Positions 28,899-44,094 of a stretch of 64,000 bases of DNA are shown piece by piece. The position numbers and the translations under genes were made by a program. A model generated the notes under the pieces. That model made no database searches. It was not told the DNA's origin and was given only the letters and a program-made list of their open reading frames with translations. Within the stretch, counting starts at the first letter, position 1, and every line of letters starts with the position of its first letter. This stretch comes from Nocardioides caldifontis (GTDB taxonomy: Bacteria; Actinomycetota; Actinomycetes; Propionibacteriales; Nocardioidaceae). The stretch covers positions 62,001 through 126,000 of the forward strand of contig NZ_ML701735.1 of assembly GCF_008087345.1 (NCBI RefSeq), read 5' to 3'.

Positions 28899-28930
28899 GT
28901 GACACGTTACACTGACTGACTGTACAGTTA
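28899..28930 (+). promoter_or_regulatory. Promoter and TetR operator of the Rieske oxygenase gene
   Basis: GTGACA (28899-28904) and TACAGT (28923-28928) are 18 bases apart, and the oxygenase ATG follows 6 bases after the second, giving a leaderless promoter. The sequence TGACTG-TA-CAGTTA (28917-28930) overlaps the -10 box. It is nearly identical over 20 bases (18 matches) to the operator-like site at 32128-32147 before the TetR gene, so the same repressor probably binds both. Confidence 0.7.
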
Positions 28931-28934
28931 GCGA

Positions 28935-30035
28935 ATGCCCGAGATCCGGAAGACGCTCCCCGGGGCGGCCTACCACTCCGACGAGACCTACGAGGTGGAC
29001 AAGGAGCGGGTCTTCTACCGCAGCTGGGTCTACGCCGCCCGGGCGGAGCGGGTCGCCGAGCCCGGGGCGTGGCTCCGGGTCGAGATCGCCGACGAGAGCA
29101 TCCTGCTCGTGCGCGGAAAGGACGGCGCGCTCCGCGGCTTCTACAACGTCTGCCGGCACCGCGGCTCCCGGCTCTGCGACGACGAGCAGGGCAAGGTCCG
29201 CTCGCACCTGCGCTGCCCCTACCACGCCTGGGGCTACGCCCTCGACGGGACGCTGGTGACCACCCCGTTGATCGAGAAGGACGAGATCGACCGTCCGTCG
29301 ACGTCGCTGTGGCCGGTCCACGTCGACGTGTGGGAGGGGTTCGTCTTCGTCAACCTCTCCCGTGAGGAGCCGCAGCCGCTGCTCGAGTCGCTGGCCGAGC
29401 AGCAGGACGACCCGCTGTCGCTGGCACGGGTCGGCCTGTCCCAGCTGCGGATCGCCGCCGTCACCGTCAACGAGGTGGCGGCGAACTGGAAGATCGTCCT
29501 CGAGAACTACAACGAGTGCCTGCACTGTCCGACGGTGCACCCCGAGCTGGTGTCGGTGATCCCCGCCTACCGCAAGGGCAACGTGTTCGAGGACGGCCGG
29601 CAGGACGGCGGCGTCACGCTCGCCGACGGGCGCACCAGCATCGTGCTGGACCCCCGCCTCCGGCTGCCGCTGCTCCCTGGCCTCAAGGGGCACACCGGCC
29701 CGGTGTCGTACTACGGCGCGGCGATCTACCCCACGATGTTCCTCGACGTCGACGGCTCCTCCGCGATCGCGACCGCGGTCTTCCCGACCGGCCCGCGCAG
29801 CTGCCGGCTGGTGACGGAGTACCTCTTCAGCCCCGAGGCGTTCGACGACCCCGCGTTCGACCCGCAGCCGGTGATCGACTTCAACGAGCTGGTGACCCGG
29901 CAGGACAACGAGGCGTGCGAGCGGGTGCAGCGCGGCATCCGGTCGCGGGCGTTCGACCACGGCGTCTTCCCGGCCAAGGACGGGTGGGTCCACACGTTCG
30001 ACCAGCGTTACCTGCGCGACGTCGAGGGCGTCTGA
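28935..30035 (+). CDS. Rieske non-heme iron oxygenase, GbcA/CntA-like
   Basis: A 366-residue oxygenase alpha subunit, probably acting on a quaternary ammonium compound such as glycine betaine. The [2Fe-2S] ligands are Cys73/His75 and Cys94/His97 (CRH...CPYH, 18 residues apart). The mononuclear iron site has His197 and His202 in ENYNECLHCPTVH, with the Asp in VTRQDNEACERVQ as likely third ligand. Position 194, which bridges the two centres, is Glu rather than the usual Asp, as in the carnitine oxygenase CntA. No reductase gene adjoins it. The carnitine-type cluster further on and the shared TetR operator support glycine betaine demethylation to dimethylglycine and formaldehyde. Confidence 0.82.
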   Translation: MPEIRKTLPGAAYHSDETYEVDKERVFYRSWVYAARAERVAEPGAWLRVEIADESILLVRGKDGALRGFYNVCRHRGSRLCDDEQGKVRSHLRCPYHAWGYALDGTLVTTPLIEKDEIDRPSTSLWPVHVDVWEGFVFVNLSREEPQPLLESLAEQQDDPLSLARVGLSQLRIAAVTVNEVAANWKIVLENYNECLHCPTVHPELVSVIPAYRKGNVFEDGRQDGGVTLADGRTSIVLDPRLRLPLLPGLKGHTGPVSYYGAAIYPTMFLDVDGSSAIATAVFPTGPRSCRLVTEYLFSPEAFDDPAFDPQPVIDFNELVTRQDNEACERVQRGIRSRAFDHGVFPAKDGWVHTFDQRYLRDVEGV

Positions 30036-30042
30036 CCCGCCG

Positions 30043-32109
30043 TCACCCCAGCACGATCCGCGCGTCGAGCGCGACGGCCCCCGACGGGCCGGCGAGCACC
30101 GGGTTCAGCTCCAGCTCCGCGAGCTCCGGGTGCTCGGCCGCCAGCCGGGAGACCCGGGCCACGACGCCCGCCACCGCGTCGAGGTCGACCGGTGGCCGGC
30201 CCCGCACGCCGAGGAGCACCGGCGCGCCCCGCAGCGAGAGCAGCAGCCGCCGGGCGGCAGCCGGCGAGACCGGGCCGACCGCGCACGCGGTGTCCCCGAG
30301 CACCTCGGTCAGGACACCGCCGAGCCCCACCATCACGACCGGTCCGAACTTCGGGTCGCGCACCGCCCCGACGACGAGCTCCACGCCGTCGGCGGTGTCC
30401 GCCATCGCCTCGAGGGACACCGCGGGCGGCGCGAGCCGGCCCACCAGGTCCTCGTACGCCGTCCGCACCGCCGCCCGCTCCGCGAGGCCGAGGACGACCC
30501 CGCCGCCCTCGGACTTGTGGAGCCGGCCGGTCGCCTTGAGGACGAGCGGGAACCCGAGCCCCGCGCTGTCCAGCGCCTCCTCGAGCCCGGCCGTCCCGGT
30601 CACCTTCACGGCGCGCGGGAAGGCGATGCCGGCGCCAGCGAACAGCTCACGCGCCGCCTCGTACGACGTGTCGGTGACCGGCGCCGCGGGGGCGGGGAGC
30701 ACCTCCGCCAGCCCCTCGGTGACCGGCTCGACGAGCCCCGCCAGCACCGCACAGGCGCGGTCGACGTCACGATGCACCGGGACGCCGCCGGCCCGCAGCA
30801 CCTGACCCGCGGGGCCGTCCGGGTAGATCGTCTGCACCACCACCGGTTTGCCCTGCGACGACACGGCGTCGACGATCCGCTGCGCGGTGGCGAGCTCGGC
30901 CCCGTGGAGCCCCTCGACCTCGGTCGCGTAGCCGCCGAAGAACCCCGTCATCAGCACCGCGTCGACCTGGTCGGAGCCGAGCAGCGCCTCGACACCGCGC
31001 GCGTAGGCCGCCACGTCCTGCTCCCCCGCACCCGCGAGGTCGACCGGATTGGTGACCGTCGCCTGGCGCCACAGCGCCGCCTCGAGCTGCTCGGTGACGG
31101 GCCCGGCGAGCGCCGGGGTGCTGAGCCCCGCCTGCGCGAGCGCGTCGGCAGCCACCGCGCCGTGGCCACCGCCGTCGGTGAGCACCGCGACCCGCGGGCC
31201 CGCGCACCGGCGGGGCTCCCGCAGGGCGACCAGCAGGTCGGCGAGCGCGGTGGGGTGGTCCACCCGGCGGGCCCCTACCGCAGCGCAGGCCGCGTCGACC
31301 ACCGCGGACGCGCTGGTCAGCGAGCCGGTGTGCGAGGCCGCGCTGCGCACCGCCGCCTCGCTGCGGCCGGGAGCGAGCAGCAGCAGGGGCTTGCCCGCCG
31401 CCCGCAGCTCCCGGGCGGCGTCGAGGAAGCCGCGGCCGTCGACGACGTCCTCGGTGTAGACGGCGACGGCTCTCGTCCCGTCGTGCGCGACGCACGCGTG
31501 CAGCAGGTCGACGACGTCGAGGTCCGCCTGGTTGCCCAACGAGACGAACCGGGAGACCCCGAGCCCACGGTCCGCCATCAGCGTGGCGAGGTCGAGGACG
31601 AGGTTGCCGCTCTGGCTGAGGACCGCGACGTCCCCGGGCGGCAGCACGGCGTGGGCCAGCTGGAGCCCGGTGGTGGTGTCGACCACCCCCAGGCAGTTCG
31701 GTCCGACGAGCACGCCACCGGCACCGCGGACGACCGCCAGCGCCTCGCCCTCGAGCCGCGCCCCGTCGGCGCCGGCCTCGGACAGCCCCGCGGTGATCCC
31801 CACGACCGCCCGGGCGCCGGCTACGACCGCGTCGGTCACCGCCGCCACGAAGCCGTCGGCCGGCACGCAGACCACGGCCAGGTCGACCGGCGCGCCGGTC
31901 GCGGTCGCAGCCTCGGTCGCGGTCCGGTGCGCGCGGCGACCGAGGACCTCGCCGCCGCGACGGTTGACGAGCAGCACGGCGCGGCCGTCGGGCGTGGAGA
32001 GGGCGCGCCGGGCGAGGATGTGGCCCCACTTCGTGGGGTCGTCGCTGGCGCCGACGATCGCGACGGTCCGGGGCGAGAACAGGGCCTCGAGCGAGCCTTG
32101 ACGCCTCAC
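30043..32109 (-). CDS. ADP-forming acyl-CoA ligase (Acd/PaaK-unrelated, acetyl-CoA synthetase type)
   Basis: A 688-residue single-chain ligase that joins CoA to a carboxylate with ATP to ADP cleavage. The CoA-binding Rossmann domain is at the N-terminus (FSPRTVAIVGASDDPTKWGH), the succinyl-CoA-ligase-like domains follow with a phospho-His candidate in LTDGGGHGAVAADA, and the ATP-grasp domain is at the C-terminus (FPLVLKATGRLHKSEGGGVVLGL, VMVGLGGVLTEVLGD; two separate segments). The GTG at 32109 is chosen because TAGGAT ends 7 bases before it. It is divergent from the TetR gene with the shared operator in between, so in this locus it may activate gamma-butyrobetaine or carnitine to its CoA ester; that is inference. 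Confidence 0.85.
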   Translation of the reverse strand: MRRQGSLEALFSPRTVAIVGASDDPTKWGHILARRALSTPDGRAVLLVNRRGGEVLGRRAHRTATEAATATGAPVDLAVVCVPADGFVAAVTDAVVAGARAVVGITAGLSEAGADGARLEGEALAVVRGAGGVLVGPNCLGVVDTTTGLQLAHAVLPPGDVAVLSQSGNLVLDLATLMADRGLGVSRFVSLGNQADLDVVDLLHACVAHDGTRAVAVYTEDVVDGRGFLDAARELRAAGKPLLLLAPGRSEAAVRSAASHTGSLTSASAVVDAACAAVGARRVDHPTALADLLVALREPRRCAGPRVAVLTDGGGHGAVAADALAQAGLSTPALAGPVTEQLEAALWRQATVTNPVDLAGAGEQDVAAYARGVEALLGSDQVDAVLMTGFFGGYATEVEGLHGAELATAQRIVDAVSSQGKPVVVQTIYPDGPAGQVLRAGGVPVHRDVDRACAVLAGLVEPVTEGLAEVLPAPAAPVTDTSYEAARELFAGAGIAFPRAVKVTGTAGLEEALDSAGLGFPLVLKATGRLHKSEGGGVVLGLAERAAVRTAYEDLVGRLAPPAVSLEAMADTADGVELVVGAVRDPKFGPVVMVGLGGVLTEVLGDTACAVGPVSPAAARRLLLSLRGAPVLLGVRGRPPVDLDAVAGVVARVSRLAAEHPELAELELNPVLAGPSGAVALDARIVLG

Positions 32110-32116
32110 CCCGGGA

Positions 32117-32148
32117 ATCCTAGCATCACTGACTGACTGAACAGTCAA
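32117..32148. promoter_or_regulatory. Divergent promoter region with second TetR operator
   Basis: On the minus strand TAGGAT (32117-32122) lies 7 bases before the ligase GTG, with TTGACT (32143-32148) 20 bases upstream. The perfect dyad TGACTG-AA-CAGTCA (32134-32147) sits in this spacer and overlaps the -35 box. It is 10 bases before the TetR start on the other strand, so it can control both genes. The site resembles 28917-28930. Confidence 0.75.
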
Positions 32149-32157
32149 ATCATCACG

Positions 32158-32859
32158 GTGGAGGCCATGGCTGCCCCAGGATCACGCGCCTCGACCGGGG
32201 CGGCAAGGCCCAACCAGCGCGAGCAGGCGGCCGCCGAGGCCCGGACGCGGATCCTTGCCGCGGCGGCCGACCGCATCGTCCACGACGGGCTGGCACAGGT
32301 CCGGATGGCGTCCATCGCCCGCACCGCCGGCGTCTCCGCCGGTCTGCTCCACTACCACTTCGACACCAAGGAGCTCCTCTTCGGCGAGGTGCTCAAGTAC
32401 TCCCACGAGCTCTCCGCCCAGCTGAACGAGCGCGCCCTGGCGAGCGCCGGCGACGGCCCACCTGAACGGCTCTCCTCGTTCCTCGACCGGTGCCTTCCCA
32501 GCGACCAGCAGCGCGCCGACGAGTGGCTGCTCTGGCAGGAGCTCACGCTCCTCTGCGTGCGCGACCCGCGGCTCGCCAAGGTGGGCGCCGACCTCTACGA
32601 GGACCTTTACGCCACCGTCGCCGACATCGTCGCCGAGGGGATCGCGAGAGGGGTCTTCGCCACTGCCCTCGACCCGCGGTTCGTCGCGGAGACCGCGGTG
32701 TCCCTCACCGACGGGCTCGGCGGCCGGGTCCTGGCCGGCGACCCCAACTTCGGCATCGAGGAGGCGCGCACCGCGATGGTCACCGCGGTCGGCATCCTGG
32801 TCGGCCACAACGGCCCCCTGCCTCCACCGACCCAGCTCGACGGCGGCGACGCCGCATGA
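32158..32859 (+). CDS. TetR/AcrR family regulator of the carnitine-type locus
   Basis: A 233-residue DNA-binding protein. The N-terminal helix-turn-helix reads ILAAAADRIVHDGLAQVRM, then SIARTAGVSAGLLHYHFDTKELLFGEVL (in two segments), the BetI-like form of the TetR fold with LLHYHF. The C-terminal part ends GILVGHNGPLPPPTQLDGGDAA. It lies at the head of the ABC-importer operon, whose first gene it overlaps by 4 bases (ATGA). Related BetI-type regulators respond to choline or betaine, which fits. Start could be GTG 32158 or ATG 32167; the ATG has GGAGG but only 2 bases from it. Confidence 0.85.
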   Translation: MEAMAAPGSRASTGAARPNQREQAAAEARTRILAAAADRIVHDGLAQVRMASIARTAGVSAGLLHYHFDTKELLFGEVLKYSHELSAQLNERALASAGDGPPERLSSFLDRCLPSDQQRADEWLLWQELTLLCVRDPRLAKVGADLYEDLYATVADIVAEGIARGVFATALDPRFVAETAVSLTDGLGGRVLAGDPNFGIEEARTAMVTAVGILVGHNGPLPPPTQLDGGDAA

Positions 32860-33998
32860 CCCCGGCCCCCGGTCATGACCACCCTCGCTGCACGAGGCGA
32901 GGGCTCCTGACCGGTGGCCTGGCCGTGGGAGCCTCCCTGTCCCTGCCCGGGTGCGCCTACATCCGCGACGACGCCCCGACCGACACTCCCCCGCCGCCCT
33001 CGGCGAAGGCCGAGATCGACGGCGACCTCGTCTACTTCAACTGGGCCGACTACCTCGCGCCGAGCGTGCTCAAGGGGTTCCAGAAGGAGTACGGCGTGCG
33101 GGTGATCGAGTCCAACTACGACTCGATGGAGGGGATGTACGCGAAGCTCGCCGCGGGGAACCGCTACGACATCGTCTTCCCGATCGCCAAGTGGGTGCAG
33201 CGGCTCCGCAAGGAGGGCAAGCTGCGCGCGATCGAACCCGACGAGCTCCAGAACGCCGACCAGGTCTTCTACTCCGGCTCCTACTTCAACGACCCCTGGT
33301 ACGACGAGGGTTCGCAGGTGTCGGTCCCGTTCACGGTCTACAAGACCGGCATCGGGTGGCGCACCGACAAGGTCTCCTCGATGACCGGGAGCTGGGAGGA
33401 CCTCTGGAACGAGGAGGCCCGGGGCCGGGTCTTCACCCTCGACGACCAGGACGAGGCGCTGGCGATGGCGGCGCTCCTCCTCGGCTACGACGTCAACACC
33501 TCCAAGCCGTCGGAGCTCGAGGAGATCAAGAAGCTGCTGATCAGCCAGAAGCAGTACCTCCGCGCGTACTCCTCCGACGACATCAACAACATGGTCGCCG
33601 GCGACGCATGGGTGCACCACATGTGGAGCGGCGACTTCCTCTACCTCCGGCAGGGGCTCGCCGAGGACCCGGACGCCTTCGACTTCGAGGCTCCCCGCGA
33701 GGGCGTCCCGATCAACTCCGACGCCTACGCGATCCCGACGGACGCCGAGCACCCTGGCACCGCCATGGTCTTCATCGACTACCTGCTGCGCCCCGAGAAC
33801 GCCATCAAGAACATGAACTACCTCTACTACCCGTTCCCGGTCCGGGACGCGCTGCCCGCCTTCGCCGAGCTCGCTGACGCCGTGCCCGCGTGCAACGTCG
33901 AGGTCTCCGACCTCGAGAACGAGAACGTCTTCCGGCTCCTCGGGTCCGACGAGGTCCAGCGCCGCGCGGCGGTGTGGACCGAGGTCAAGGCAAGCTGA
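32856..33998 (+). CDS. PotD-like extracytoplasmic substrate-binding lipoprotein
   Basis: A 380-residue binding protein of the spermidine/putrescine (PotD/F) class. A Tat-like RRGLLTGG segment and the lipobox LPGC near residue 31 make it a membrane-anchored lipoprotein. Then come LVYFNWADYLAPSVLKGFQKEY, KLAAGNRYDIVFPIAKW, TVYKTGIGWRTDKV and DAYAIPTDAEHPGTAMVFIDYLL, all characteristic of the family. The aromatic and acidic residues lining the cleft suit a cationic amine, and here the ligand may be carnitine or a betaine rather than a polyamine. ATG overlaps the TetR stop by 4 bases. Confidence 0.85.
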   Translation: MTPAPGHDHPRCTRRGLLTGGLAVGASLSLPGCAYIRDDAPTDTPPPPSAKAEIDGDLVYFNWADYLAPSVLKGFQKEYGVRVIESNYDSMEGMYAKLAAGNRYDIVFPIAKWVQRLRKEGKLRAIEPDELQNADQVFYSGSYFNDPWYDEGSQVSVPFTVYKTGIGWRTDKVSSMTGSWEDLWNEEARGRVFTLDDQDEALAMAALLLGYDVNTSKPSELEEIKKLLISQKQYLRAYSSDDINNMVAGDAWVHHMWSGDFLYLRQGLAEDPDAFDFEAPREGVPINSDAYAIPTDAEHPGTAMVFIDYLLRPENAIKNMNYLYYPFPVRDALPAFAELADAVPACNVEVSDLENENVFRLLGSDEVQRRAAVWTEVKAS

Positions 33999-34879
33999 TG
34001 GTCGCGCTCGGGCCGGCCCCGGCCCCGCGCCGGTCCGCGCAGCGGACCTGGCTGTGGGGCGCGCTGCTGGCGGTGCCGACCGCCTGGATGGTGGCGTTCT
34101 TCGTCATCAGCATGGTGATCGTCGTGCTGCTCCCGTTCGGCCGCACCACCAACGACGGCTTCCCGGTGTTCTCGACCAGCCTCGACAACTACCGGGCGCT
34201 CTGGAACGACGTCTACCTCGAGCTGTTCGTGCGCTCGGTGCTCTACGCGCTGGCCACCGTCGTCCTCTCGGCGCTGATCGCCTACCCGACCGCCTACGCC
34301 ATCGCCCTGCACGGCGGCCGGTACAAGAACGCGCTCATCGCGGCGGTCGTCGTGCCGTTCTTCGCCAGCTACCTGATCCGGATGTACGCCTGGAAGGCGC
34401 TGCTCTCCGACGACGGGCTCGTCAACAGCGGGCTGCGGGGCTCCGGGCTCGGCGACGGGATCGCGTTCCTCAACACGCCGTGGGCGGTGATCGGCGGGCT
34501 CGTCTACGGCTTCGTGGTCTTCATGATCCTGCCGATCTACGCCTCCCTCGAGCGGCTCGACGTGTCGCTGGTCGAGGCCGGCAAGGATCTCTACCACGGG
34601 CCGGTCCGCACCTTCTTCAGCGTGACGCTCCCCGCCACCCGCTACGGGCTGTACGGCGGCGCGCTGCTGGTCTTCCTCCCCGCGCTCGGCGACTTCGTGA
34701 GCGCGCAGCTGCTCGGCGGCGCCGGCACCTACATGATGGGCAACCTTGTCCAGCAGCAGTTCAACGAGGGGCAGAACTGGCCGCTGGGCTCCGCGATGAC
34801 CGTCGGGATGATGGCCGCCCTCACAGCGCTCATGGTCGCCTACCTCCGGGCCACCTCGACCCAGGCACGGGAGACCTGA
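33998..34879 (+). CDS. PotB-like ABC transporter permease
   Basis: A 293-residue inner-membrane permease with about six helices. The cytoplasmic EAA loop is ASLERLDVSLVEAGKDLYHGP, the contact point with the ATPase. It begins MVALGPAPAPRRSAQRTWLWGAL and matches the PotB type in length and topology. Its ATG overlaps the preceding stop by one base (TGATG), so all four importer genes are translated as a unit. Substrate follows from the binding protein and remains unproven. Confidence 0.9.
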   Translation: MVALGPAPAPRRSAQRTWLWGALLAVPTAWMVAFFVISMVIVVLLPFGRTTNDGFPVFSTSLDNYRALWNDVYLELFVRSVLYALATVVLSALIAYPTAYAIALHGGRYKNALIAAVVVPFFASYLIRMYAWKALLSDDGLVNSGLRGSGLGDGIAFLNTPWAVIGGLVYGFVVFMILPIYASLERLDVSLVEAGKDLYHGPVRTFFSVTLPATRYGLYGGALLVFLPALGDFVSAQLLGGAGTYMMGNLVQQQFNEGQNWPLGSAMTVGMMAALTALMVAYLRATSTQARET

Positions 34880-35712
34880 TGCCACGCCGGAGCCTGGAGC
34901 GGAGGCCGCGGACCGCCGTGGCCGTCACGGTGCTGCTGTTCGCCTGGCTCTACCTGCCGATCCTCGCCGTCACTCTTTTCAGCTTCAACGACAAGAAGTC
35001 GCTGTCGGCGTTCTCCGGCTTCAGCCTCCGCTGGTACCACGACCTCGCGCACGACCAGGCGCTGCTCGAGTCCCTGGTGGCCAGCCTCCAGATCGCCACC
35101 CTCGCCACCCTCGGTTCCCTGGTGCTCGGCACGATGCTCGCCCTGGGGCTGGAACGGGTGCGCTCCCGCCGAGGCCGGGTGATCGGGGCGGTGACGCTGC
35201 TGCCGCTGGTCACCCCGGAGATCGTGACCGGCGTGGCGGCGCTGCTGCTCTTCACCGGCATCGGGCTCAAGCTGTCGCTGACCACGGTGGTGCTTGCGGA
35301 GATCACGTTCTCCATCGCCTACGTCACCGTCATCGTCCGGGGCCGCCTGGCCGGGCTCTCGACCGAGGTCGAGGAGGCGGCGCGCGACCTCGGCTGCACG
35401 CCGTGGCAGGCCCTCCGGCTGGTCACGCTGCCCGCGCTCGTGCCCGCCCTGCTCGGCGCCGGGCTGCTGGTGTTCGCCCTGGTCTTCGACGACTTCGTGC
35501 TCGCCTTCTTCACCACGGGCGTGGACCCGCAACCGCTCCCGGTGCGCGTCTACTCCTCGATCCGCTTCGGGGTCTCGCCCGCGATCAACGCGATCGGCAC
35601 GCTGATGCTCCTCGTCTCGGCGCTGCTGATCGTGGCCGCCCTGGTGCTCCTCCGCCTCTTCGGGAGGGGCACGTCCAGCCTGGAGCTGATCACCGGAGGT
35701 GAGCGGCGATGA
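34879..35712 (+). CDS. PotC-like ABC transporter permease
   Basis: A 277-residue inner-membrane permease and partner of the PotB-like gene. It has about six helices and the EAA loop STEVEEAARDLGCTPWQA, with FNDKKSLSAFSGFSLRWY after the first helix and FDDFVLAFFTTG, the usual PotC signature, near the fifth helix. Its start overlaps the previous stop by one base; its own stop overlaps the ATPase start by 4 bases. Confidence 0.9.
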   Translation: MPRRSLERRPRTAVAVTVLLFAWLYLPILAVTLFSFNDKKSLSAFSGFSLRWYHDLAHDQALLESLVASLQIATLATLGSLVLGTMLALGLERVRSRRGRVIGAVTLLPLVTPEIVTGVAALLLFTGIGLKLSLTTVVLAEITFSIAYVTVIVRGRLAGLSTEVEEAARDLGCTPWQALRLVTLPALVPALLGAGLLVFALVFDDFVLAFFTTGVDPQPLPVRVYSSIRFGVSPAINAIGTLMLLVSALLIVAALVLLRLFGRGTSSLELITGGERR

Positions 35713-36815
35713 CCGCGACCACGACCGCCAGCAAGCCCCTCAGCAGAGCCGGGACGCCGTCGGTCTCGCTGCGCGGGCTGACGAAGGTCTTCGGCGGCAC
35801 GACCGTCGTCGACCACCTCGACCTCGACGTCGCGGGCGGGGAGTTCTTCTCGCTGCTCGGTCCGTCGGGGTGCGGCAAGACCACGACGCTGCGGATGATC
35901 GCCGGCTTCAGCGACCCGACCGACGGCTCGGTCCTCGTCGGCGGCGAGGACGTCACCAGCACGCCTCCGCACAAGCGCGACGTCAACACGGTCTTCCAGA
36001 GCTACGCGCTGTTCGAGCACCTCGACGTCCGCGGCAACGTCGGCTTCGGGCTGCGCCGCAAGGGGCTCGACCGGCGGACGCTCGACCGCCGGGTCTCGGA
36101 GATGCTCGAGCTGGTCGAGCTCGCCGACAAGGGCCGGGAGAAGCCGAGCCGGCTGTCCGGCGGGCAGCGGCAGCGCGTCGCGCTGGCCCGCGCGCTGATC
36201 AACGAGCCGAAGGTGCTGCTGCTCGACGAGCCGCTGGCCGCGCTCGACCTCCAGCTGCGCCACGCGATGCAGGCCGAGCTCAAGGCGCTCCAGCGGGAGG
36301 TCGGCATCACCTTCCTGTTCGTCACCCACGACCAGGACGAGGCGCTGAGCATGAGCGACCGCGTCGCGATCATGAACAACGGCGTGCTCGAGCAGTGCGG
36401 CACCCCGGAGGACGTCTACGAGCGGCCCACGTCGGTCTTCGCGGCCGGCTTCATCGGCACCAGCAACCTCATGAGCGGCGTCTGGTCCCACGGCAGCGTC
36501 GTCGTCGCACCCTCGGTCGCCATCCCGGCGCCGGCGCACCACGGGTCGGCGGAGGGGGACACGGTTAGCGTCGCCGTACGCCCGGAGAAGATCTGGCTCG
36601 GCGACCACACGGACGAGATGTTCCGGCTGCCCGGCACCATCGAGGCGACGACCTACCACGGCGCCACCACTCGCTACAGGGTCGCGATCGCCCCCGGCCT
36701 GGCGCTCACCGTGCTGGAGCAGAACCTGCCCCGGATGCGCGCCGAGGACCGGTGGGACCCCGGCGACCGGGTCGAGGTCGGCTGGCTCCCCGAGCACACG
36801 GTCGTCCTGACGTGA
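35709..36815 (+). CDS. PotA-like ABC transporter ATP-binding protein
   Basis: A 368-residue ATPase of the PotA/CUT class. Walker A GPSGCGKTTTLRMIAGF is near residue 51, Q-loop FQSYALFEHLDV, signature LSGGQRQRVALARA, Walker B LLLDEPLAALD and switch His LFVTHDQDEAL. After residue ~250 there is a TOBE regulatory domain ending EVGWLPEHTVVLT. It energises the PotBC-like permease. ATG 35709 overlaps the permease stop; its stop overlaps the amine-oxidase start by 4 bases. Confidence 0.92.
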   Translation: MTATTTASKPLSRAGTPSVSLRGLTKVFGGTTVVDHLDLDVAGGEFFSLLGPSGCGKTTTLRMIAGFSDPTDGSVLVGGEDVTSTPPHKRDVNTVFQSYALFEHLDVRGNVGFGLRRKGLDRRTLDRRVSEMLELVELADKGREKPSRLSGGQRQRVALARALINEPKVLLLDEPLAALDLQLRHAMQAELKALQREVGITFLFVTHDQDEALSMSDRVAIMNNGVLEQCGTPEDVYERPTSVFAAGFIGTSNLMSGVWSHGSVVVAPSVAIPAPAHHGSAEGDTVSVAVRPEKIWLGDHTDEMFRLPGTIEATTYHGATTRYRVAIAPGLALTVLEQNLPRMRAEDRWDPGDRVEVGWLPEHTVVLT

Positions 36816-38125
36816 GCCGCCCGGACGTGGTCGTCGTCGGCGCCGGGCTGGCCGGGCTCGCCGCCGCCCGCGACCTCGAGGCCGGCGGCGCCACGGTCAC
36901 CGTCCTCGAGGCCCGCCCCCGGGTAGGCGGCCGCGTCGAGCAGGTGGAGATCGACGACGGCCGCCGGGTGCAGCTCGGCGGCGAGGTGGTCGGCGACGCG
37001 CACACCAGCTACCTCGGGCTCGTCGAGGAGCTCGGGCTGACGCTGGTCCCGTCCTACGTCGCCGAGCCCGGCGAGATCACCCGCCAGGTCCCCGGGGCGG
37101 TGGACGTCGGCGACTGGCCGTCCTGGTTCACCCCCGCCGACCGAGCCTCGTACGACGAGGTGGAGGCCGCCCTCGGCAAGGTGCTCGCCTCGATCGACCC
37201 CGCCGACCCGTGGTCCTCCCCCGACCTCGAGCAGCTCGACCGGCTCAGCGTCGGCGACTGGCTTCGCGAGGCGGGCGCGACACCCGCCGTGCTCCGGCTC
37301 AAGGAGCTCGCCCACCTCAGCCTCGCCGACGGCTCGATCGAACGGACCAGCCTGTTCGCCTACGCCCGCAAGATCGCGGCCGGCGGCACGACCGGCAGCT
37401 ACGACGTCGCGCGGTGGGAGAACCTCCGGGTCGCCGAGGGCTCCGCGACCGTCGCCCTGACGGTGGCGGCCGGCCTGCGCGACGTCCGGCTGTCCTCACC
37501 GGTCCGCGGCGTCACCGTCCGGCGCCACGGCTGCGTGGTCACCACACACGACGGCGAGGAGGTGCGGGGCGGCGCGGTCGTGCTCGCGGTACCGGCGGGG
37601 CCCGCGCGGGACCTCGAGGTCGACGGCGTCAGCGACGAGCGGCTCGCCTCTCTGCGCCGGCAGCGGCACGCGTGGGCGGCGAAGTTCGTGGCCGCCTACG
37701 ACGAGCCGTTCTGGCGGGCACGTGGTCAGAACGGGCTGTCCGAGTGCGAGGGGGTGCTGGGCTCCACGTGGCCGCAGCAGCACGGCGTGCTGTCCGCGCT
37801 CGTGCCGCCGGAGCGCTACGCGGCCTTCGCGGCGACCGACCCGCGCACCCGGACCCGCGAGGCGCTCGCCCAGGTGGCGGCGCTCTACGGACCGCAGGGC
37901 GAGGCGCCGCTGCAGACCTGGACCCGGCTGTGGGGCACCGACCCGTGGACCCAGGGCTACGTCACCGGGTGGCAGCCGGGCGACGTGGTCGCCGTCGGCC
38001 CGCTCCACGGCACCCACGAACCGCCCTTCTACGTCTGCGGCTCCGACCAGTGGGTCGCCGGCTACATGGAGGGCGCCGTCCGCACCGGCCGCGCGGCCGC
38101 CGCGGCGGCGCTGGCGCACGGCTGA
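36812..38125 (+). CDS. FAD-dependent amine oxidase (monoamine-oxidase family)
   Basis: A 437-residue flavoprotein. The FAD dinucleotide motif is at the very N-terminus (VVVVGAGLAGLAAARDLEAGG), then VTVLEARPRVGGRVE, and the C-terminal FAD/substrate motif CGSDQWVAGYMEGAVRTGRAAA, all characteristic of MAO/putrescine oxidase relatives. It would deaminate an amine with O2 to give aldehyde, H2O2 and ammonium or a methylamine. The GTG start overlaps the PotA-like stop by 4 bases. The substrate is presumably what the neighbouring importer brings in or a breakdown product of it. Confidence 0.85.
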   Translation: MSRPDVVVVGAGLAGLAAARDLEAGGATVTVLEARPRVGGRVEQVEIDDGRRVQLGGEVVGDAHTSYLGLVEELGLTLVPSYVAEPGEITRQVPGAVDVGDWPSWFTPADRASYDEVEAALGKVLASIDPADPWSSPDLEQLDRLSVGDWLREAGATPAVLRLKELAHLSLADGSIERTSLFAYARKIAAGGTTGSYDVARWENLRVAEGSATVALTVAAGLRDVRLSSPVRGVTVRRHGCVVTTHDGEEVRGGAVVLAVPAGPARDLEVDGVSDERLASLRRQRHAWAAKFVAAYDEPFWRARGQNGLSECEGVLGSTWPQQHGVLSALVPPERYAAFAATDPRTRTREALAQVAALYGPQGEAPLQTWTRLWGTDPWTQGYVTGWQPGDVVAVGPLHGTHEPPFYVCGSDQWVAGYMEGAVRTGRAAAAAALAHG

Positions 38126-38154
38126 GCACGCGACCCAACGGCAGAGAGGAACCC

Positions 38155-39309
38155 ATGGACTTCGGCCTGACCGACGAGCAGCGCAGCATCGTCGAGGTGA
38201 CGCGGGCGTTCGTCGAGCGCGAGCTGTACCCCCACGAGGAGGAGGTCGAGCGCACCGGGGTGGTGCGTCCCGAGCTCGTCGAGGAGATCCGCGCGAAGGC
38301 GCTGGCGGCTGGGCTGTACGCCGCGAACATGCCCGAGGAGGTCGGGGGCGCCGGCCTCGACACGGTGACGTGGGTGCTCTACGAGAAGGAGCTCGGGAAG
38401 GCGAGCTACGCCCTGCACTACACCGCGGTCGCCCGGCCCTCGAACATCCTGCTCGCCTGCACCGAGGCGCAGCGGGAGCGGTACCTCTACCCGTGCGTGC
38501 GTGGCGAGAAGGTCGACTGCCTCGCGATGACCGAACCCGGCGCGGGGTCCGACATGCGCGGCATGCGGACCCGGGCCGCCCGTGACGGCGACGGCTGGCG
38601 GATCAACGGCACCAAGCACTTCATCAGCCACGCGGCCGAGGCCGACTTCGTGATCCTCGTGGCGGTGACCGGCACCGACGGTGCCGGGCGGCCAGCGATG
38701 TCGACGTTCCTGGTCGACCTCGACACCCCCGGGCTGACCGTGCAGGAGGGGTACCGCAACGTCTCGCACCGCGGCTACACCAACTCGATCCTCCACTTCG
38801 ACGACGTGCGCGTCGGCGACGAGGCGCTGCTGGGCGAGGTGGACGAGGGGTTCGCGCTGGCCGGCACCTGGCTCGGGTCGACGCGGCTCCAGGTCGCCGC
38901 CTCGTGCCTCGGCCGGGCCGAGCGGGCGCTCGACCTGTCGGTGCGCCACGCCGCGACCCGTGAGCAGTTCGGCCGGCCGATCGGCAAGTTCCAGGGCGTC
39001 GGGTTCAAGCTGGCCGACATGGCGAGCGAGCTCCGGGCCGCCGAGCTGGTGACGCTGCACGCCGCCTGGAAGCACGACCAGGGCACCGCCACCGACGCCG
39101 ACTTCGCGATGGCGAAGCTGCGGGCGAGCGAGATGCTCGCGATGGTCGCCGACGAGGCGATCCAGGTCCACGGAGGGATGGGACTCATGGACGAGCTGCC
39201 GCTCGAACGGATCTGGCGGGACGCCCGGATCGAGCGGATCTGGGACGGGACCTCCGAGATCCAGCGCCACATCATCAGCCGCTCGCTGCTGCGGCCCCTG
39301 GGAGGCTGA
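38155..39309 (+). CDS. Acyl-CoA dehydrogenase, CaiA-like candidate
   Basis: A 384-residue flavoenzyme. Family signatures are CLAMTEPGAGSDMRGMRTRA (FAD/substrate loop), INGTKHFISHAAEADF, REQFGRPIGKFQGVGFKLADM and AIQVHGGMGLMDELPLERIWRDARI. In MCAD the catalytic base is Glu in a YEGTSQIQ context; here the equivalent reads IWDGTSEIQRHI, with Asp in that place. It has a good AGAGAGGA ribosome site. Placed next to a CaiD homolog, it most likely interconverts gamma-butyrobetainyl-CoA and crotonobetainyl-CoA; short-chain or isobutyryl-CoA oxidation is an alternative. Confidence 0.85.
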   Translation: MDFGLTDEQRSIVEVTRAFVERELYPHEEEVERTGVVRPELVEEIRAKALAAGLYAANMPEEVGGAGLDTVTWVLYEKELGKASYALHYTAVARPSNILLACTEAQRERYLYPCVRGEKVDCLAMTEPGAGSDMRGMRTRAARDGDGWRINGTKHFISHAAEADFVILVAVTGTDGAGRPAMSTFLVDLDTPGLTVQEGYRNVSHRGYTNSILHFDDVRVGDEALLGEVDEGFALAGTWLGSTRLQVAASCLGRAERALDLSVRHAATREQFGRPIGKFQGVGFKLADMASELRAAELVTLHAAWKHDQGTATDADFAMAKLRASEMLAMVADEAIQVHGGMGLMDELPLERIWRDARIERIWDGTSEIQRHIISRSLLRPLGG

Positions 39310-39313
39310 GCGG

Positions 39314-40099
39314 ATGAGCGACGTGCTGCACACCCGCGTCGAGGACCGCGTCCTCGAGGTGACCCTCGACCGTCCCAAGGCCAACGCCATCGACCTCGCC
39401 ACCAGCCGGGAGATGGGCGAGGTGTTCGCCGGCTTCCGCGACGACCCCGAGCTCCGGGTCGCGATCCTCCGCACCGCCGGGGACAAGTTCTTCAGCGCCG
39501 GCTGGGACCTCAAGGCCGCGGCGGCCGGGGACGACGTGACCGGCGACTACGGCGTCGGCGGGTTCGGCGGGCTCCAGGAGCTGCCCGACCTGAACAAGCC
39601 GGTCATCGCCGCCGTCCACGGCCTCGCGATGGGCGGCGGCTTCGAGCTCGCGCTCGCGTGCGACCTGATCTACGCCTCGGAGTCGACCCAGTTCGGGTTG
39701 CCGGAGATCAACGCGGGCACCCTTGCCGACGCCGCCACGATCAAGCTGCCGAAGCGGATGCCGTACCACGTCGCGATGGAGCTGCTGCTGACCGGACGGT
39801 GGATGGCCGCCGAGGAGGCCGCACGCTGGGGGGTGGTCAACGCCGTGCTCCCCGACGACGAGGCGGTCCGCGCCCGGGCCTGGGAGACCGCCCGGCTCCT
39901 CGCCTCCGGGCCGCCGCTGGTCTTCGCGGCGATCAAGGAGACCGCAAGGGTGGCGGAGTCGCTGCGGTTCCAGGAGGCTATGGACCTCGTCACCTCCAGC
40001 TCGCTCCCGACGGTCGAGAAGCTCTACACCTCCGAGGACGGCCTGGAGGGGTTCAAGGCCTTCGCCGAGAAGAGGAAGCCGGTGTGGAAGGGGCGATGA
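39314..40099 (+). CDS. caiD: Carnitinyl-CoA dehydratase CaiD-like enoyl-CoA hydratase
   Basis: A 261-residue crotonase-fold protein resembling CaiD along its length. Shared landmarks are LDRPKANAIDLATSREMGEVF, FRDDPELRVAI, KFFSAGWDLKAAA, a GGFELALACD catalytic/oxyanion loop, GRWMAAEEAARWGVVN and the ending FAEKRKPVWKGR. CaiD interconverts crotonobetainyl-CoA and L-carnitinyl-CoA. The start follows the dehydrogenase stop by 4 bases, so it is in the same operon. The exact substrate is inferred from this resemblance and from the BKACE and carnitine-dehydrogenase genes that follow. Confidence 0.85.
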   Translation: MSDVLHTRVEDRVLEVTLDRPKANAIDLATSREMGEVFAGFRDDPELRVAILRTAGDKFFSAGWDLKAAAAGDDVTGDYGVGGFGGLQELPDLNKPVIAAVHGLAMGGGFELALACDLIYASESTQFGLPEINAGTLADAATIKLPKRMPYHVAMELLLTGRWMAAEEAARWGVVNAVLPDDEAVRARAWETARLLASGPPLVFAAIKETARVAESLRFQEAMDLVTSSSLPTVEKLYTSEDGLEGFKAFAEKRKPVWKGR

Positions 40100-40171
40100 G
40101 CACGAGCACGGGACGGTGGACGAATTGGGGGACGGCATGAGGGACCACACGACCAACGAGGAGGACGCCCA

Positions 40172-41056
40172 GTGAACCGCAACGTCATGATCACCTGCGC
40201 GCTGACCGGTGCCGGCGACACCGTGGGGCGCTCGGAGCACGTCCCGGTGACGCCGGAGCAGATCGCCGAGTCCGGCATCGCGGCGGCGCGAGCCGGCGCC
40301 ACCATCGTCCACATCCACGTGCGCGATCCCGAGACGGGCAAGGGCTCCCGTGACGTCGCGCTCTACCGCGAGGTGGTCGAGCGGATCCGCGCCTCGGACG
40401 TCGACGTCATCATCAACACGACCGCCGGCATGGGCGGCGACCTGATGCTCGATCCGCACGACCCCACGACGTTCGTGGAGGGCACCGACCTGGTCAGCGG
40501 CGTCGACCGGCTCCCGCACGTCGAGGAGCTCCTTCCGGACATCTGCACGCTCGACTGCGGGAGCCTCAACTTCGGGGAGGGCAGCCTGGTCTACGTGAGC
40601 ACCCCGGACATGCTCCGCGAGGGCGCGAAGAAGATCCAGGAGCTCGGCGTACGGGTGGAGATGGAGATCTTCGACACCGGCCACCTGTGGTTCGCCAACA
40701 AGCTGGTCGAGGAGGGGCTGATCGACCAGCCCGCTATGTTCCAGCTCTGCATGGGGATCCCGTACGGCGCCCCGGCGGACCCGCTGACGCTGCACTCGAT
40801 GGTGGCCCAGCTGCCCACGGACGCCGTCTGGGCGTCGTTCGCGCTCGGCCCGATGCAGATGCCCTGGGTGGCGCAGTCCGTGCTCCTCGGTGGCCACGTC
40901 CGGGTCGGGCTGGAGGACAACCTCTACCTGAGCCGCGGGGTCAAGGCGACCAACGCGCAGCTCGTCGAGCGGGCGAGGACGATCGTGGAGAGCATGGGCG
41001 CCAAGGTCGCCACCCCCGACGAGGGCCGCGAGATCCTCGCGCTGAAGCCGCGTTGA
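40172..41056 (+). CDS. BKACE (DUF849) beta-keto acid cleavage enzyme, CdhC-like
   Basis: A 294-residue Zn-dependent TIM-barrel enzyme. The metal-site histidines are His47 and His49 in [16 protein letters not shown], followed by the acid at the end of the barrel. BKACE enzymes split a beta-keto acid with acetyl-CoA; the carnitine-specific member turns 3-dehydrocarnitine plus acetyl-CoA into betainyl-CoA plus acetoacetate. Its neighbours, a carnitine-dehydrogenase-like enzyme and a thioesterase, are exactly those known for that pathway in Pseudomonas and Sinorhizobium. GTG start with GGAGGA upstream. Two tiny ORFs fill the preceding 72-base gap. Confidence 0.88.
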
Positions 41057-42051
41057 GCCCGGTGGACGCCGTGGACGCCGTGGACGCCGTGGACGCCGTG
41101 GACGGGGCCGGGGGCCGGCCGGCGCCGCAGGATGTCCGGACCATCACCTGCGTGGGCGCCGGCGTCATCGGCGGCGGCTGGGTGGCGTACTTCCTGGCGC
41201 GCGGCTACCGGGTGGTGGCGTGGGACCCGGCCGACACGGCCGAGGCCCGGCTCCGCCACCTCGTCGACAGGGCCTGGCCGGCGCTGACCGAGCTGGGGCT
41301 CTCCGATGGCGCCAGCGCCGACAACCTGACGGTGGAGCGCGACCTCGCGACCGCCTGCGCGGACACGCACTTCGTGCAGGAGAGCGCCCCGGAGGACCTC
41401 GAGCTGAAGCGGACGCTGCTCGCCGACATCGACGCGGTGACCCCGGTCGACGTGGTCATCTCGTCGTCGACCTCCGGCTACGGGATGAGCGAGATGCAGA
41501 CCAAGTGCGCGCACCCCGAGCGCACGGTCGTCGGACACCCGTTCAACCCGCCGTACCTCATCCCGCTGGTCGAGGTGGTCGGCGGGACCGCGACGTCGGC
41601 GGAGACCGTGGCGTGGACGTCCGAGTTCTTCCGGCACGCGGGGAAGTCCGTGATCACCATGGAGCGCGAGGTGCCCGGGTTCATCGCGAACCGGCTCCAG
41701 GAGGCGCTGTGGCGCGAGGCGCTGCACATGGTCGCCGCCGGCGAGGCGACCGTCGAGCAGATCGACCTCTCGATCACGGACGGTCCGGGGCTGCGGTGGC
41801 CGATCCACGGGCCGATGATGACCTTCCACCTCGCCGGCGGGCAGGGCGGGATGGCGCACATGCTCGACCACTTCGGGCCCTCGCTGCTGTCGCCGTGGAC
41901 CCGGCTGGTCGCGGCGGAGCTCACCCCGGAGCTGCGCGACGCGGTCGTCGAGGGCTGCGAGCGCGAGGCGGACGGCCGGAGCATCGACGACCTGGTCGCC
42001 GAGCGCGACCGCGGCGTGATCGCGGTCCTGCGGGCGTTGGGGCGCGCGTGA
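41053..42051 (+). CDS. Carnitine 3-dehydrogenase-like (3-hydroxyacyl-CoA dehydrogenase fold)
   Basis: A protein of about 320-332 residues. The NAD-binding motif is [19 protein letters not shown], followed by [45 protein letters not shown] and [20 protein letters not shown]. These are the landmarks of L-carnitine dehydrogenase, which oxidises carnitine to 3-dehydrocarnitine with NAD+. The start is ambiguous: a TTG at 41053 overlaps the BKACE stop by 4 bases, but the next 45 bases are four GTG-GAC-GCC units plus GTG-GAC-GGG, any GTG of which could initiate. Product feeds the BKACE enzyme. Confidence 0.87.
41062..41106 (+). repeat. Tandem 9-base GTGGACGCC repeats at the dehydrogenase start
   Basis: Four exact copies of GTGGACGCC are followed by GTGGACGGG, all in frame with the dehydrogenase. 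Each unit supplies a GTG start and adds Val-Asp-Ala. Confidence 0.9.
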
Positions 42052-42500
42052 CTGCGGCACCGGTCCTCTGGCGGGAGCCCGTCCAGCACGCGTGGATCGA
42101 CTACAACGGCCACCTCTCCGAGCCCTACTACGTGCTGGTGTTCGGCCACGCCACCGACGCGGTGATGGAGGCCGTCGGGCTCGGGCCCGACTACCGGGCG
42201 GCGCACGACGCGTCGCTCTACACGGTCGAGGCGCACGTGCGGTACCTCGCCGAGGTGTCCGCGGGCAGCGAGCTCGAGGTGCGCTCCTCGGTCATCGGGG
42301 CGACCGGCAAGCTGCTGTGGATCTGGCACGAGATGTGGGTCGACGGGCGGCTGCGCGCGACCGAGGAGGTCCTCGGGGTGCACGTGGTCGGCAGCCGGGC
42401 GGCGCCGTTCCCCGACGACGTCGCCGCCCGGGCACGCGCCGCGTGCGTGGAGCCGCCCGAGGAGGCGAGCGGACGGATCAGGCCGTTGCCCAGCGCCTGA
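42048..42500 (+). CDS. Hot-dog-fold thioesterase, betainyl-CoA thioesterase candidate
   Basis: A 150-residue hot-dog-fold protein. The catalytic Asp candidate lies in HAWIDYNGHLSEPYYVLVFG, the FadM/4-HBT-type motif (D-x-N-G-H), and VEAHVRYLAEVSAGSELEV follows. Known CdhB-type enzymes release glycine betaine and CoA from betainyl-CoA. The GTG start overlaps the dehydrogenase stop by 4 bases, making it the last gene of the operon. Substrate assignment depends on context. Confidence 0.82.
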   Translation: MTAAPVLWREPVQHAWIDYNGHLSEPYYVLVFGHATDAVMEAVGLGPDYRAAHDASLYTVEAHVRYLAEVSAGSELEVRSSVIGATGKLLWIWHEMWVDGRLRATEEVLGVHVVGSRAAPFPDDVAARARAACVEPPEEASGRIRPLPSA

Positions 42501-42984: not shown

Positions 42985-44094
42985 GTGCCGGAGGACACCG
43001 GGTTCTTCGGCCAACCTCGGGTCCTCGCGAACCTCTTCGGCGTCGAGCTGTGGGAGCGGTTCAGCTTCTACGGCATGCAGGGGATCCTGCTGATCTACCT
43101 GTACTACAGAGCGCACCCTGTTCTACTCCGCCGCGCTGGTGATGGCCGGGCACGTCGCCCTCGCGGTCGTGCCCGAGCTGGTCGGCGTGGGGATCGGCCT
43201 GGTGCTCGTGGCCCTCGGCAGCGGCGGCGTGAAGGCCAATGCGACCGCGCTGGTCGGCGCGCTGTACGCGGCGGGCGACGAGCGGCGCGACGCCGGGTTC
43301 TCGCTCTTCTACATGGGCATCAACATCGGCGCCCTCGTCGGGCCGCTGCTGACCGGGGTGCTCCAGGAGGAGTGGGGGTTCCACTTCGGCTTCGGCCTCG
43401 CAGCGATCGGCATGGCGGCAGGGCTCGTCCAGTACACGCTGGGGCGGGGCCGGCTGCCTGCGAGCACGGGTGAGGTCGCGAACCCGCTTCCCCAGCGGCT
43501 GCGGAGCCGCTACGCGATGGCGGGCGCCGGGGCCTTGGCGGCCGTCGTGCTCCTGTGCGTCGTCGGGGTCGTCACCACGGACCGGTTGTCCACGATCGTC
43601 GCGTGGTGCAGCGGGCTCGCGGCCGCGGCGTACTTCCTGTCTTCATCATCACCCTCGCCGGCGCCTTCGCGGCCCTGTGGACCCGTCTGGGTCCCCGGCA
43701 GCCGTCGACCCCGGTGAAGTTCGGGCTCGGGACGCTGCTGATGGGGACGGCCTTCCTGCTGTTCCTGCTCATGCCGGAGGGACGCAGCTCGGTCCCGGTC
43801 GCCGGGTTGGCGGGCATCCTCCTGGTCTTCACCGTCGCCGAGCTGCTGCTGTCGCCGGTGGGGCTGTCGCTGTCGACGAAGCTCGCGCCCGCGAAGTACC
43901 GGACCCAGATGGTGGCGCTCTTCTTCCTCTCCGTGGCGCTGGGCACCGCGATGTCCGGGACGCTGGCGTCGTACTACGACCCCGACGCCGAGACCGGGTT
44001 CTTCCTCGTCGTCGGGCTGGTGGCGGTCGCGGTCGGCGGCCTGGTGCTCGCGCTGTCCCGGCCGATCAGGTCCTTGATGAGCGGGGTGCACTGA
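42985..44094 (+). pseudogene. POT-family peptide transporter, degraded
   Basis: Three reading frames together give a POT/PTR transporter with pieces missing. The first (GTG 42985) has [27 protein letters not shown], the hallmark helix 1. About base 43110 it switches to [14 protein letters not shown] and continues [17 protein letters not shown] and [13 protein letters not shown]. Near 43645 it changes frame again to FIITLAGAFAALWTRLGPRQ and continues to SRPIRSLMSGVH. Relative to intact family members, about 50 residues after YLYY and a larger section before FIITL are lost, so it cannot be functional. Its end overlaps the glycosyltransferase gene by 29 bases. Confidence 0.8.

Follow-up and report, generated by a model that had tools for sequence, protein, structure and literature searches.

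A putative TetR-controlled locus of Nocardioides caldifontis combining an amine-oxidase module with the carnitine trio

Described carnitine systems and the window locus

Bacterial systems acting on γ-butyrobetaine and carnitine have been described from several sources, and the present work compares with them a locus of 13 genes in a stretch of 64,000 nucleotides from Nocardioides caldifontis (contig NZ_ML701735.1, positions 62,001 to 126,000; the whole stretch is hereafter called the window). The cai operon of Escherichia coli performs steps of the acyl-CoA dehydrogenase and crotonobetainyl-CoA hydratase type on CoA esters, as predicted also for the window, where, however, the steps would run oxidatively to carnitine and an ADP-forming ligase stands instead of CaiB/CaiC; neither CaiT nor the fix genes were seen in the window locus. 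A route from butyrobetaine to L-carnitine that is likewise aerobic and resembles fatty-acid degradation is known from the Rhizobium/Agrobacterium-like Lonza strain HK4/HK1349 (PMC2131755), the present comparison covering the route. The carnitine operon of Pseudomonas aeruginosa, caiX-cdhCAB-hocS (PMC5806209), leads from carnitine to glycine betaine with the same order of the BKACE, carnitine 3-dehydrogenase (CDH) and thioesterase genes as the window; the same chemistry is set out in PMC12482172, citing a Sinorhizobium study. The two operons differ in the regulator (the AraC-family CdhR there, a TetR protein here) and in uptake (CaiX/CbcWV there, a Pot-type transporter here); the window adds genes of putative butyrobetaine activation, a MAO-family flavin amine oxidase (MAO) and a Rieske oxygenase, whereas no hocS-like gene is present in its operon.

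On the plasmid pSR3 of the alphaproteobacterium Aminobacter sp. SR38, genes for CaiD-CDH, BKACE, a Pot-type transporter, an acyl-CoA dehydrogenase (ACAD) and an acetate--CoA ligase family protein stand together, the identities to the window being 52% for ACAD, 50% for CaiD, 52% for CDH and 57% for BKACE. The plasmid locus differs in its ligase clade (ACS2, see below), its GlxA-type regulator and an extra acetoacetate-CoA ligase; neither MAO nor Rieske oxygenase is found among its 23 annotated features, and its binding protein gave no match to the PotD-type protein of the window at 1e-5. The Streptomyces-type module—Rieske, PotDBCA, MAO and aminobutyraldehyde dehydrogenase—shares with the window the MAO (59-66%), the Pot genes, the ligase clade (ACS1) and a similar palindrome before the Rieske gene, and differs in that there are mostly no ACAD/CaiD genes nearby, that its Rieske oxygenase belongs to another clade without the Cys pair described below, and that a NuoF-like gene is added.

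The window locus appears to be a known kind of pathway with a widely conserved amine-oxidase module placed in front. We consider it reasonably probable that it represents a TetR-controlled catabolic regulon of two modules, of which module A (Rieske/ACS1/TetR/PotDBCA/MAO/ACAD/CaiD) feeds the carnitine trio, module B (BKACE/CDH/thioesterase), all the substrates being predicted from sequence. An earlier note on this DNA had described a one-locus route from butyrobetaine through carnitine to glycine betaine and its demethylation. This route is probably right in the middle and at the end, but not with regard to the input, the label of the Rieske oxygenase and completeness: open frames and family scans bore out all the genes named, but MAO had been overlooked. 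As for the arrangement, held then to be undescribed, the claim has to be narrowed: Nocardioides sp. Root1257 and N. halotolerans DSM 19273 have the modules joined in the same order, and related one-locus layouts exist elsewhere. A route both producing and consuming carnitine, probably under one operator, would be present in soil actinobacteria and could be tested in type strains.

Putative operator and modules

Pfam places all 13 genes in their families. From TetR to the thioesterase, 11 co-directional genes follow each other in the order TetR-potD-potB-potC-potA-MAO-ACAD-caiD-BKACE-CDH-thioesterase, 9 of the 10 junctions being overlaps—that of MAO with potA amounting to 4 bp—or gaps of at most 29 bp, and the largest gap, that from caiD to BKACE, measuring 72 bp. 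This run is divergent from the acyl-CoA synthetase gene (ACS1), which is convergent with the upstream, separate Rieske gene. Given the opposite orientation of the ligase gene and the isolated position of the Rieske gene, there are probably three transcription units sharing two copies of one operator, rather than a single operon. The layout exceeds chance, as the identical gene order was found again in relatives.

The two copies, TGACTGACTGTACAGTTA and TGACTGACTGAACAGTCA, match one TetR-type palindrome. For the pattern TGACTGACTGNNCAGTYA with up to three mismatches, 0.38 occurrences are expected in the window and three were found: both exact sites plus a third that overlaps the first of these on the opposite strand; the 4.8-Mb genome contains exactly two perfect matches, both at this locus. 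A genome scan with two mismatches added four sites, likely due to chance, since the reversed control pattern gives 7. Sites with at most three mismatches are present at both promoters in 10/10 distinct module-A genomes, the window included (13 loci were surveyed, three pairs being identical; G062, whose contig ends short of the promoters, was left out). The operator common to both promoters bears out the earlier idea of one regulated unit; the locus looks like one regulon, and the position and symmetry of the sites suggest that the TetR protein of the operon binds both palindromes. Of 47 Streptomyces-type loci, some of them from other genera, 41 carry a related palindrome with at most one mismatch no more than 700 bp ahead of the Rieske match, a count that is partly circular, the pattern having been drawn up after viewing some of the loci; the absence of the palindrome elsewhere in 943,276 bases of those loci is less so. 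In another cluster of the window genome (L056; C7, 136000-152456), a peptide-type transporter and an N-methyltryptophan/sarcosine-oxidase-type gene accompany two more Rieske oxygenases; a 2-mismatch operator-like word, possibly a chance one, ends ~25 bp before the first Rieske gene.

Locus conservation was compared across 197 genomes of the family. CDH gave a match at 1e-40 in 31 of them, with at least 80% identity in 18, and the eight genomes with MAO orthologues (1e-60) all belong to these 18 (hypergeometric 9e-10, a value overstated because the genomes are kin); BKACE, CDH and thioesterase are present together in all eight. The order Rieske-ACS-TetR-PotDBCA-MAO-ACAD-CaiD is retained in 6/7 relatives, and the seventh, truncated by its contig end, has MAO-ACAD-CaiD (the MAO of locus L041, missed by the gene finder, was located in a gap by homology search). 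As for the trio in these seven, it is situated ~10 kb downstream in G104; four others have it on the same contig at a distance of at least 258 kb, and the remaining two on a different contig.

Among 84,980 species genomes, a scan by sequence pattern yielded 93 MAO relatives, of which 80 loci were retained; the counts over them were made by tblastn, a simple gene finder having overlooked some of the relatives' genes. A Rieske gene plus at least three Pot genes accompany MAO in 54/80 loci, which defines a conserved Rieske-Pot-amine oxidase module across dozens of Actinomycetota genomes; no description of it was found in the literature searched, subscription journals being mostly outside its reach. 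Pot, Rieske, ACS1 and aminobutyraldehyde dehydrogenase surround MAO without ACAD/CaiD in 38/80 loci, whereas MAO stands without partner genes in 16/80, which were excluded from the module members, some of their contigs being short. In the Streptomyces-type loci, the aminobutyraldehyde dehydrogenase gene is usually the next after MAO. Streptomyces qinglanensis and S. pathocidini (L095 and L076) have MAO beside a thioesterase-ACAD-ligase-CaiD cassette and a CDH of 70-72% identity; among three MAO genomes without the cassette (S. cyaneochromogenes, Mycobacterium triplex and Streptomyces sp. cf386), CDH gave no match at 1e-40 in two and one of 41% in the third. A search of plasmids for MAO gave no match at 1e-30. 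MAO relatives of 54-55% also occur in two contigs of metagenome-assembled genomes titled Bifidobacterium breve (L139 and L141), probably mislabelled bins, and a tandem pair of MAO genes stands beside Pot, Rieske and ACAD in L063 and L147 (Gaiellaceae) and in L146, the former two carrying additionally an OYE-type oxidoreductase.

Predicted substrates and rival readings

Module B is the known trio, predicted to convert carnitine to glycine betaine. Its three genes are adjacent in the window in the order BKACE, CDH, thioesterase; BKACE scored 331 bits (cut-off 24.8), and the best models for CDH were those of L-carnitine dehydrogenase, both below cut-off (NF005471, 333.4 bits vs 414; NF005716, a split half, 277.7 bits vs 592). 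On the carnitine dehydrogenase model PRK07531 (495 positions), CDH covers positions 4-307 and the thioesterase 349-471; matching separate parts of one model, the two correspond by alignment to the two halves of a known longer protein. In L004, L006, L010, L011, L016 and L020, the trio is preceded by genes for a dipeptide-type ABC transporter and for a beta-lactamase-like serine hydrolase (both families were assigned with Pfam for one locus only). This hydrolase, seen with the trio and its transporter in L004, L010, L016, L058 and others, is possibly an acylcarnitine hydrolase with a role like that of hocS. Near the trio in L004, L006, L010, L011, L016, L020 and L022, a sulfatase is encoded, often together with a sulfatase-modifying factor (Pfam for the pair of L004, by eye for the other loci). 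In the window genome itself, BKACE and 3-hydroxyacyl-CoA dehydrogenase genes are paired a second time, accompanied by a Rieske gene, in L035 (C1, ~665 kb), this BKACE exceeding the cut-off for 3,5-dioxohexanoate:acetyl-CoA transferase (489.7 vs 430).

ACAD, the CaiD-like hydratase and the CoA ligase probably feed this trio, the argument for butyrobetaine being borne by gene context. The top model of the hydratase is CaiD (NF002936; 298.9 bits, runner-up 215.4, cut-off 500), and ACAD is ruled out by score as a member of the CaiA family (NF002885; 182.8 bits vs 540). The three genes adjoin the trio in five family genomes in which this MAO is absent at 1e-60 (L007, from the same genus as the window genome, L015, L022, L023 and L024), and this, together with the Aminobacter locus, upholds the route from butyrobetaine through carnitine to betaine; the trio of L023 and L024 is not fully orthologous, since their BKACE is just 31-32% identical to that of the window. 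The window ACAD belongs to a cassette clade of 62-89% identity that recurs with CaiD beside the trio in several layouts. IWDGTSE is the sequence in the cassette ACADs examined, including that of Aminobacter, at the catalytic Glu position of short-chain ACADs; in the ACADs of 38-43% identity that adjoin MAO in other loci, IWEGTSE stands there. The ligase, a fused protein, exhibits the CoA-binding, Succ_CoA_lig and ATP-grasp domains of an ADP-forming acyl-CoA synthetase together with the SHTG motif of these enzymes.

That the step from carnitinyl-CoA to free carnitine is not obviously encoded had been rightly remarked earlier. Six sister loci (L015, L022, L023, L024, L095 and L076) have a second thioesterase ahead of ACAD, these enzymes forming one clade (99/99) separate from the betainyl-CoA type. 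In the ligase tree, the ligases beside five of the six (that of L024 was left out) group with the Aminobacter one as clade ACS2, which is split with 100/100 from ACS1, to which the ligases of the window, L007, Streptomyces and Mycobacterium belong; in L095 both clades occur, with one ligase each. The ACS2 cassettes of Actinomycetota are accompanied by the second thioesterase, and the two ACS1 layouts having ACAD and CaiD without ACS2—the window type and L007—have none in the locus. The window genome yielded no orthologue of it, the best match being the window thioesterase itself (39%) and the next one 26%; the Aminobacter stretch contains no annotated thioesterase. In the sister loci, it is probably the second thioesterase beside ACAD that performs the step. 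ADP-forming acyl-CoA ligases are reversible, and ACS1 could therefore release carnitine; in the window, the release would most likely proceed by ACS1 in reverse, ATP-neutral together with the activation, or by the single thioesterase, if its range is broad enough for both esters. A concrete answer for the missing step is thereby offered, with a second thioesterase in the sister loci and the other ligase clade in the window.

Concerning the uptake, spermidine is bound in E. coli PotD by four acidic residues, with W255 being critical (PMC11414716). Aligned to it, the PotD-type protein of the window (147.8 bits with NF007048, cut-off 582) retains E36 (as Asp), D168, E171, D257, W34, Y37 and W229, while W255 is changed to Asn and Y85, likewise a ligand position, to Lys. 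Among 59 rows of PotD orthologues, some sharing a genome, the acidic DDxDE motif was read in all 59; 54 rows showed the motif with Asn for Trp together with the Asp belonging to it, and 49 the Lys motif, the motif expressions possibly missing the remainder. Since all four spermidine-contacting acidic positions are acidic here, the import of butyrobetaine by Pot, as assumed earlier, appears doubtful, and the loss of W255 disfavours a plain polyamine. The closest solved structures of MAO are putrescine oxidases (141 bits); E311 and E313 are invariant in 10/10 aligned MAOs, and next to E313 aligns Glu324 of putrescine oxidase, the acidic residue that binds the second amine there. The PotD pocket and MAO together suggest a ligand with two positive ends, not butyrobetaine. 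The dehydrogenase following MAO in L061 of the Streptomyces group is of the aminobutyraldehyde dehydrogenase type (645.7 bits vs a cut-off of 615). ALDH9A1, whose initial description was that of an aminobutyraldehyde dehydrogenase, has 4-trimethylaminobutyraldehyde as its preferred substrate (PMC6487263); a step leading to butyrobetaine would therefore suit this class of enzymes.

For the Rieske oxygenase of the window, a betaine N-demethylase is the best guess. In its motif ENYNECLHC, a CysXXCys pair adjoins the iron site, and the position of CntA Tyr203 is occupied by an aromatic residue; the Cys pair and the aromatic residue define group Va, that of the carnitine monooxygenase CntA (PMC7948474, PMC10952381); the motif is not strict for the group, the aromatic residue being shared by a Priestia Rieske oxygenase of betaine-type context. 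The latter is encoded near an N-methyltryptophan-oxidase-type gene, an FAD-dependent oxidoreductase and a BCCT transporter. In the tree, the window enzyme goes with the Priestia one (92/85), a row of deviant composition, and with two others of its own genome (84/88 and 80/85), all below the strict threshold. The earlier label "GbcA-like" does not hold as family membership, since the GbcA model (NF058607) gave 193.8 bits vs a cut-off of 670 and covered residues 7-211, the N-terminal half, only. CntA, suggested by the best PDB match, was rejected as well, because the tree places YeaW elsewhere, paired with the Rieske oxygenase of L035 from the window genome (95/90). Between ACS1 and the Rieske gene, L061, L100, L119 and other Streptomyces loci encode a NuoF-like protein of ~420 amino acids (Complex1_51K plus a 4Fe-4S domain in L100), a candidate electron donor for the Rieske oxygenase.

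The following course may be proposed. Pot would import, and MAO deaminate, most likely a cationic C4 amine, the aldehyde being turned into butyrobetaine by a general aminobutyraldehyde dehydrogenase. ACS1 would activate butyrobetaine to its CoA ester, ACAD would desaturate butyrobetainyl-CoA, and CaiD would hydrate the product to carnitinyl-CoA. Once released, carnitine would be oxidised by CDH, BKACE would form betainyl-CoA and acetoacetate with acetyl-CoA, and the thioesterase would hydrolyse betainyl-CoA to glycine betaine; the Rieske oxygenase would most likely take a methyl group off a betaine of the route. A narrower version, put forward tentatively, sees here a new entry to carnitine: a modified PotD would import a dicationic quaternary diamine, for instance (4-aminobutyl)trimethylammonium, which MAO would convert to 4-trimethylaminobutyraldehyde and an aminobutyraldehyde dehydrogenase further to butyrobetaine, one reversible ligase would both activate butyrobetaine and release carnitine at no net ATP cost, and in actinobacteria generally the module would take the form of the Pot-MAO-Rieske-ACS1 core.

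Several points weigh against the two-module regulon and its route. The scores of CaiD, CDH, ACAD, BKACE, ACS, TetR, Rieske and PotD are all under the NCBIfam equivalog cut-offs, ACAD scoring 293.5 with its best model and much less with CaiA, and none of the NCBIfam models matched is specific for dehydrocarnitine cleavage. The window locus has no aldehyde dehydrogenase, the best homologue in the genome (57%) lying on another contig, and no dedicated GbcB-like Rieske reductase was found in the genome, whose three FAD_binding_6 proteins each adjoin an apparent desaturase gene (by eye). With regard to the operator, no site with up to four mismatches lies within 260 bp before BKACE in 6/7 module-A genomes with a separate trio—in G028, a 1-mismatch site starts 40 bp ahead of BKACE—nor in any of nine genomes without module A, one locus of each group having merely 5-mismatch words. 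In a phylum sample, MAO (1e-60) was found in 4/396 genomes and CDH (1e-90) in 6/396, both coinciding only in the window genome, which makes an obligate link outside the family unlikely; together with the mostly absent ACAD/CaiD in the Streptomyces-type loci, this means that the module can serve a purpose other than carnitine.

Butyrobetaine might be the sole intended substrate, converted by the Rieske oxygenase to 4-dimethylaminobutyrate and by MAO to succinic semialdehyde and dimethylamine, in parallel to the CoA branch to carnitine; in nicotine degraders, a methylamine-forming 4-methylaminobutanoate oxidase performs a comparable cleavage. The Rieske gene in 57/80 MAO loci and the grouping with the Priestia enzyme and its neighbourhood speak for it, and the methylamine-forming oxidase is among the PDB matches of MAO, albeit weakly (53 bits vs 141 for putrescine oxidase). 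The enzyme after MAO in L061 is, however, of the aminobutyraldehyde and not of the succinic semialdehyde type (645.7 vs 323 bits), and four acidic ligand positions in PotD are unfavourable to a carboxylate, which leaves this parallel branch rather doubtful.

Less probable still is that module A serves chiefly the catabolism of polyamines of the putrescine type, the carnitine-type enzymes having been added later for another substrate class. The Pot-type uptake, the putrescine oxidases as closest solved relatives of MAO and the aminobutyraldehyde dehydrogenase adjoining MAO in the Streptomyces-type loci speak for it, and the S. coelicolor genes SCO5666-5671 (transporter, PuuB-type oxidoreductase and aminobutyraldehyde dehydrogenase), which resemble such loci in make-up, have been assigned to polyamine use (PMC5403932, PMC9397018). 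Against it, neither a Rieske oxygenase nor a CoA ligase is known to have a role in putrescine oxidation, the Trp255 of PotD is Asn here and in 54/59 of the orthologue rows, and all eight MAO-bearing family genomes have the carnitine trio. It seems very improbable that unrelated short acyl-CoAs are the substrates of ACAD and CaiD and that the position of the two beside the trio is accidental: the best model of ACAD is indeed acryloyl-CoA reductase and general short-chain ACADs are among its closest solved structures, but the recurrence of its clade with CaiD beside the trio in several layouts, at 52% even in Aminobacter, argues against an accident.

Gene inventory and minor observations

The features of the locus are listed in Table 1. 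For ACS1, the GTG start at 32109 is favoured over TTG at 32148, since the latter abuts operator 2.

Table 1 Features of the window locus (positions refer to the window)
Feature	Position	Strand	Basis or remark
Operator 1, TGACTGACTGTACAGTTA	28913..28930	+	exact site directly before the start codon of the Rieske gene
Rieske oxygenase alpha subunit, 366 aa	28935..30035	+	Pfam/profile scans
ADP-forming (NDP-forming) acyl-CoA synthetase, ACS1 clade	30043..32109	-	Pfam, tree
Operator 2, TGACTGACTGAACAGTCA	32130..32147	+	exact site between ACS and TetR
TetR regulator, BetI-type C-terminal domain	32158..32859	+	profile scans
PotD-type binding protein	32856..33998	+	acidic ligand positions retained; Trp255 and Tyr85 positions substituted
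PotB-type permease (BPD_transp_1)	33998..34879	+	Pfam
PotC-type permease (BPD_transp_1)	34879..35712	+	Pfam
PotA-type ATPase, TOBE domain	35709..36815	+	Pfam
MAO-family flavin amine oxidase, 437 aa	36812..38125	+	Pfam; closest solved structures putrescine oxidases
ACAD, IWDGTSE clade, putative butyrobetainyl-CoA dehydrogenase	38155..39309	+	profiles, tree
CaiD-like enoyl-CoA hydratase, putative crotonobetainyl-CoA hydratase	39314..40099	+	profiles
BKACE, putative 3-dehydrocarnitine:acetyl-CoA cleavage	40172..41056	+	profiles
CDH, CdhA-like	41053..42051	+	profiles
4HBT-type thioesterase, CdhB-like, putative betainyl-CoA thioesterase	42048..42500	+	profiles, tree

After the operon, at 42985-44094 (+), a POT-family peptide transporter gene is broken, with homology switching between two frames and internal stops; two pieces gave PTR2 matches, and decay or a sequence error may be responsible. 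At the BKACE/CDH junction (41062-41104), the 9-bp unit GTGGACGCC is repeated four times plus a partial fifth, encoding a VDA-repeat N-terminus of CDH, and the matches to close relatives mostly start at residues 16-24.

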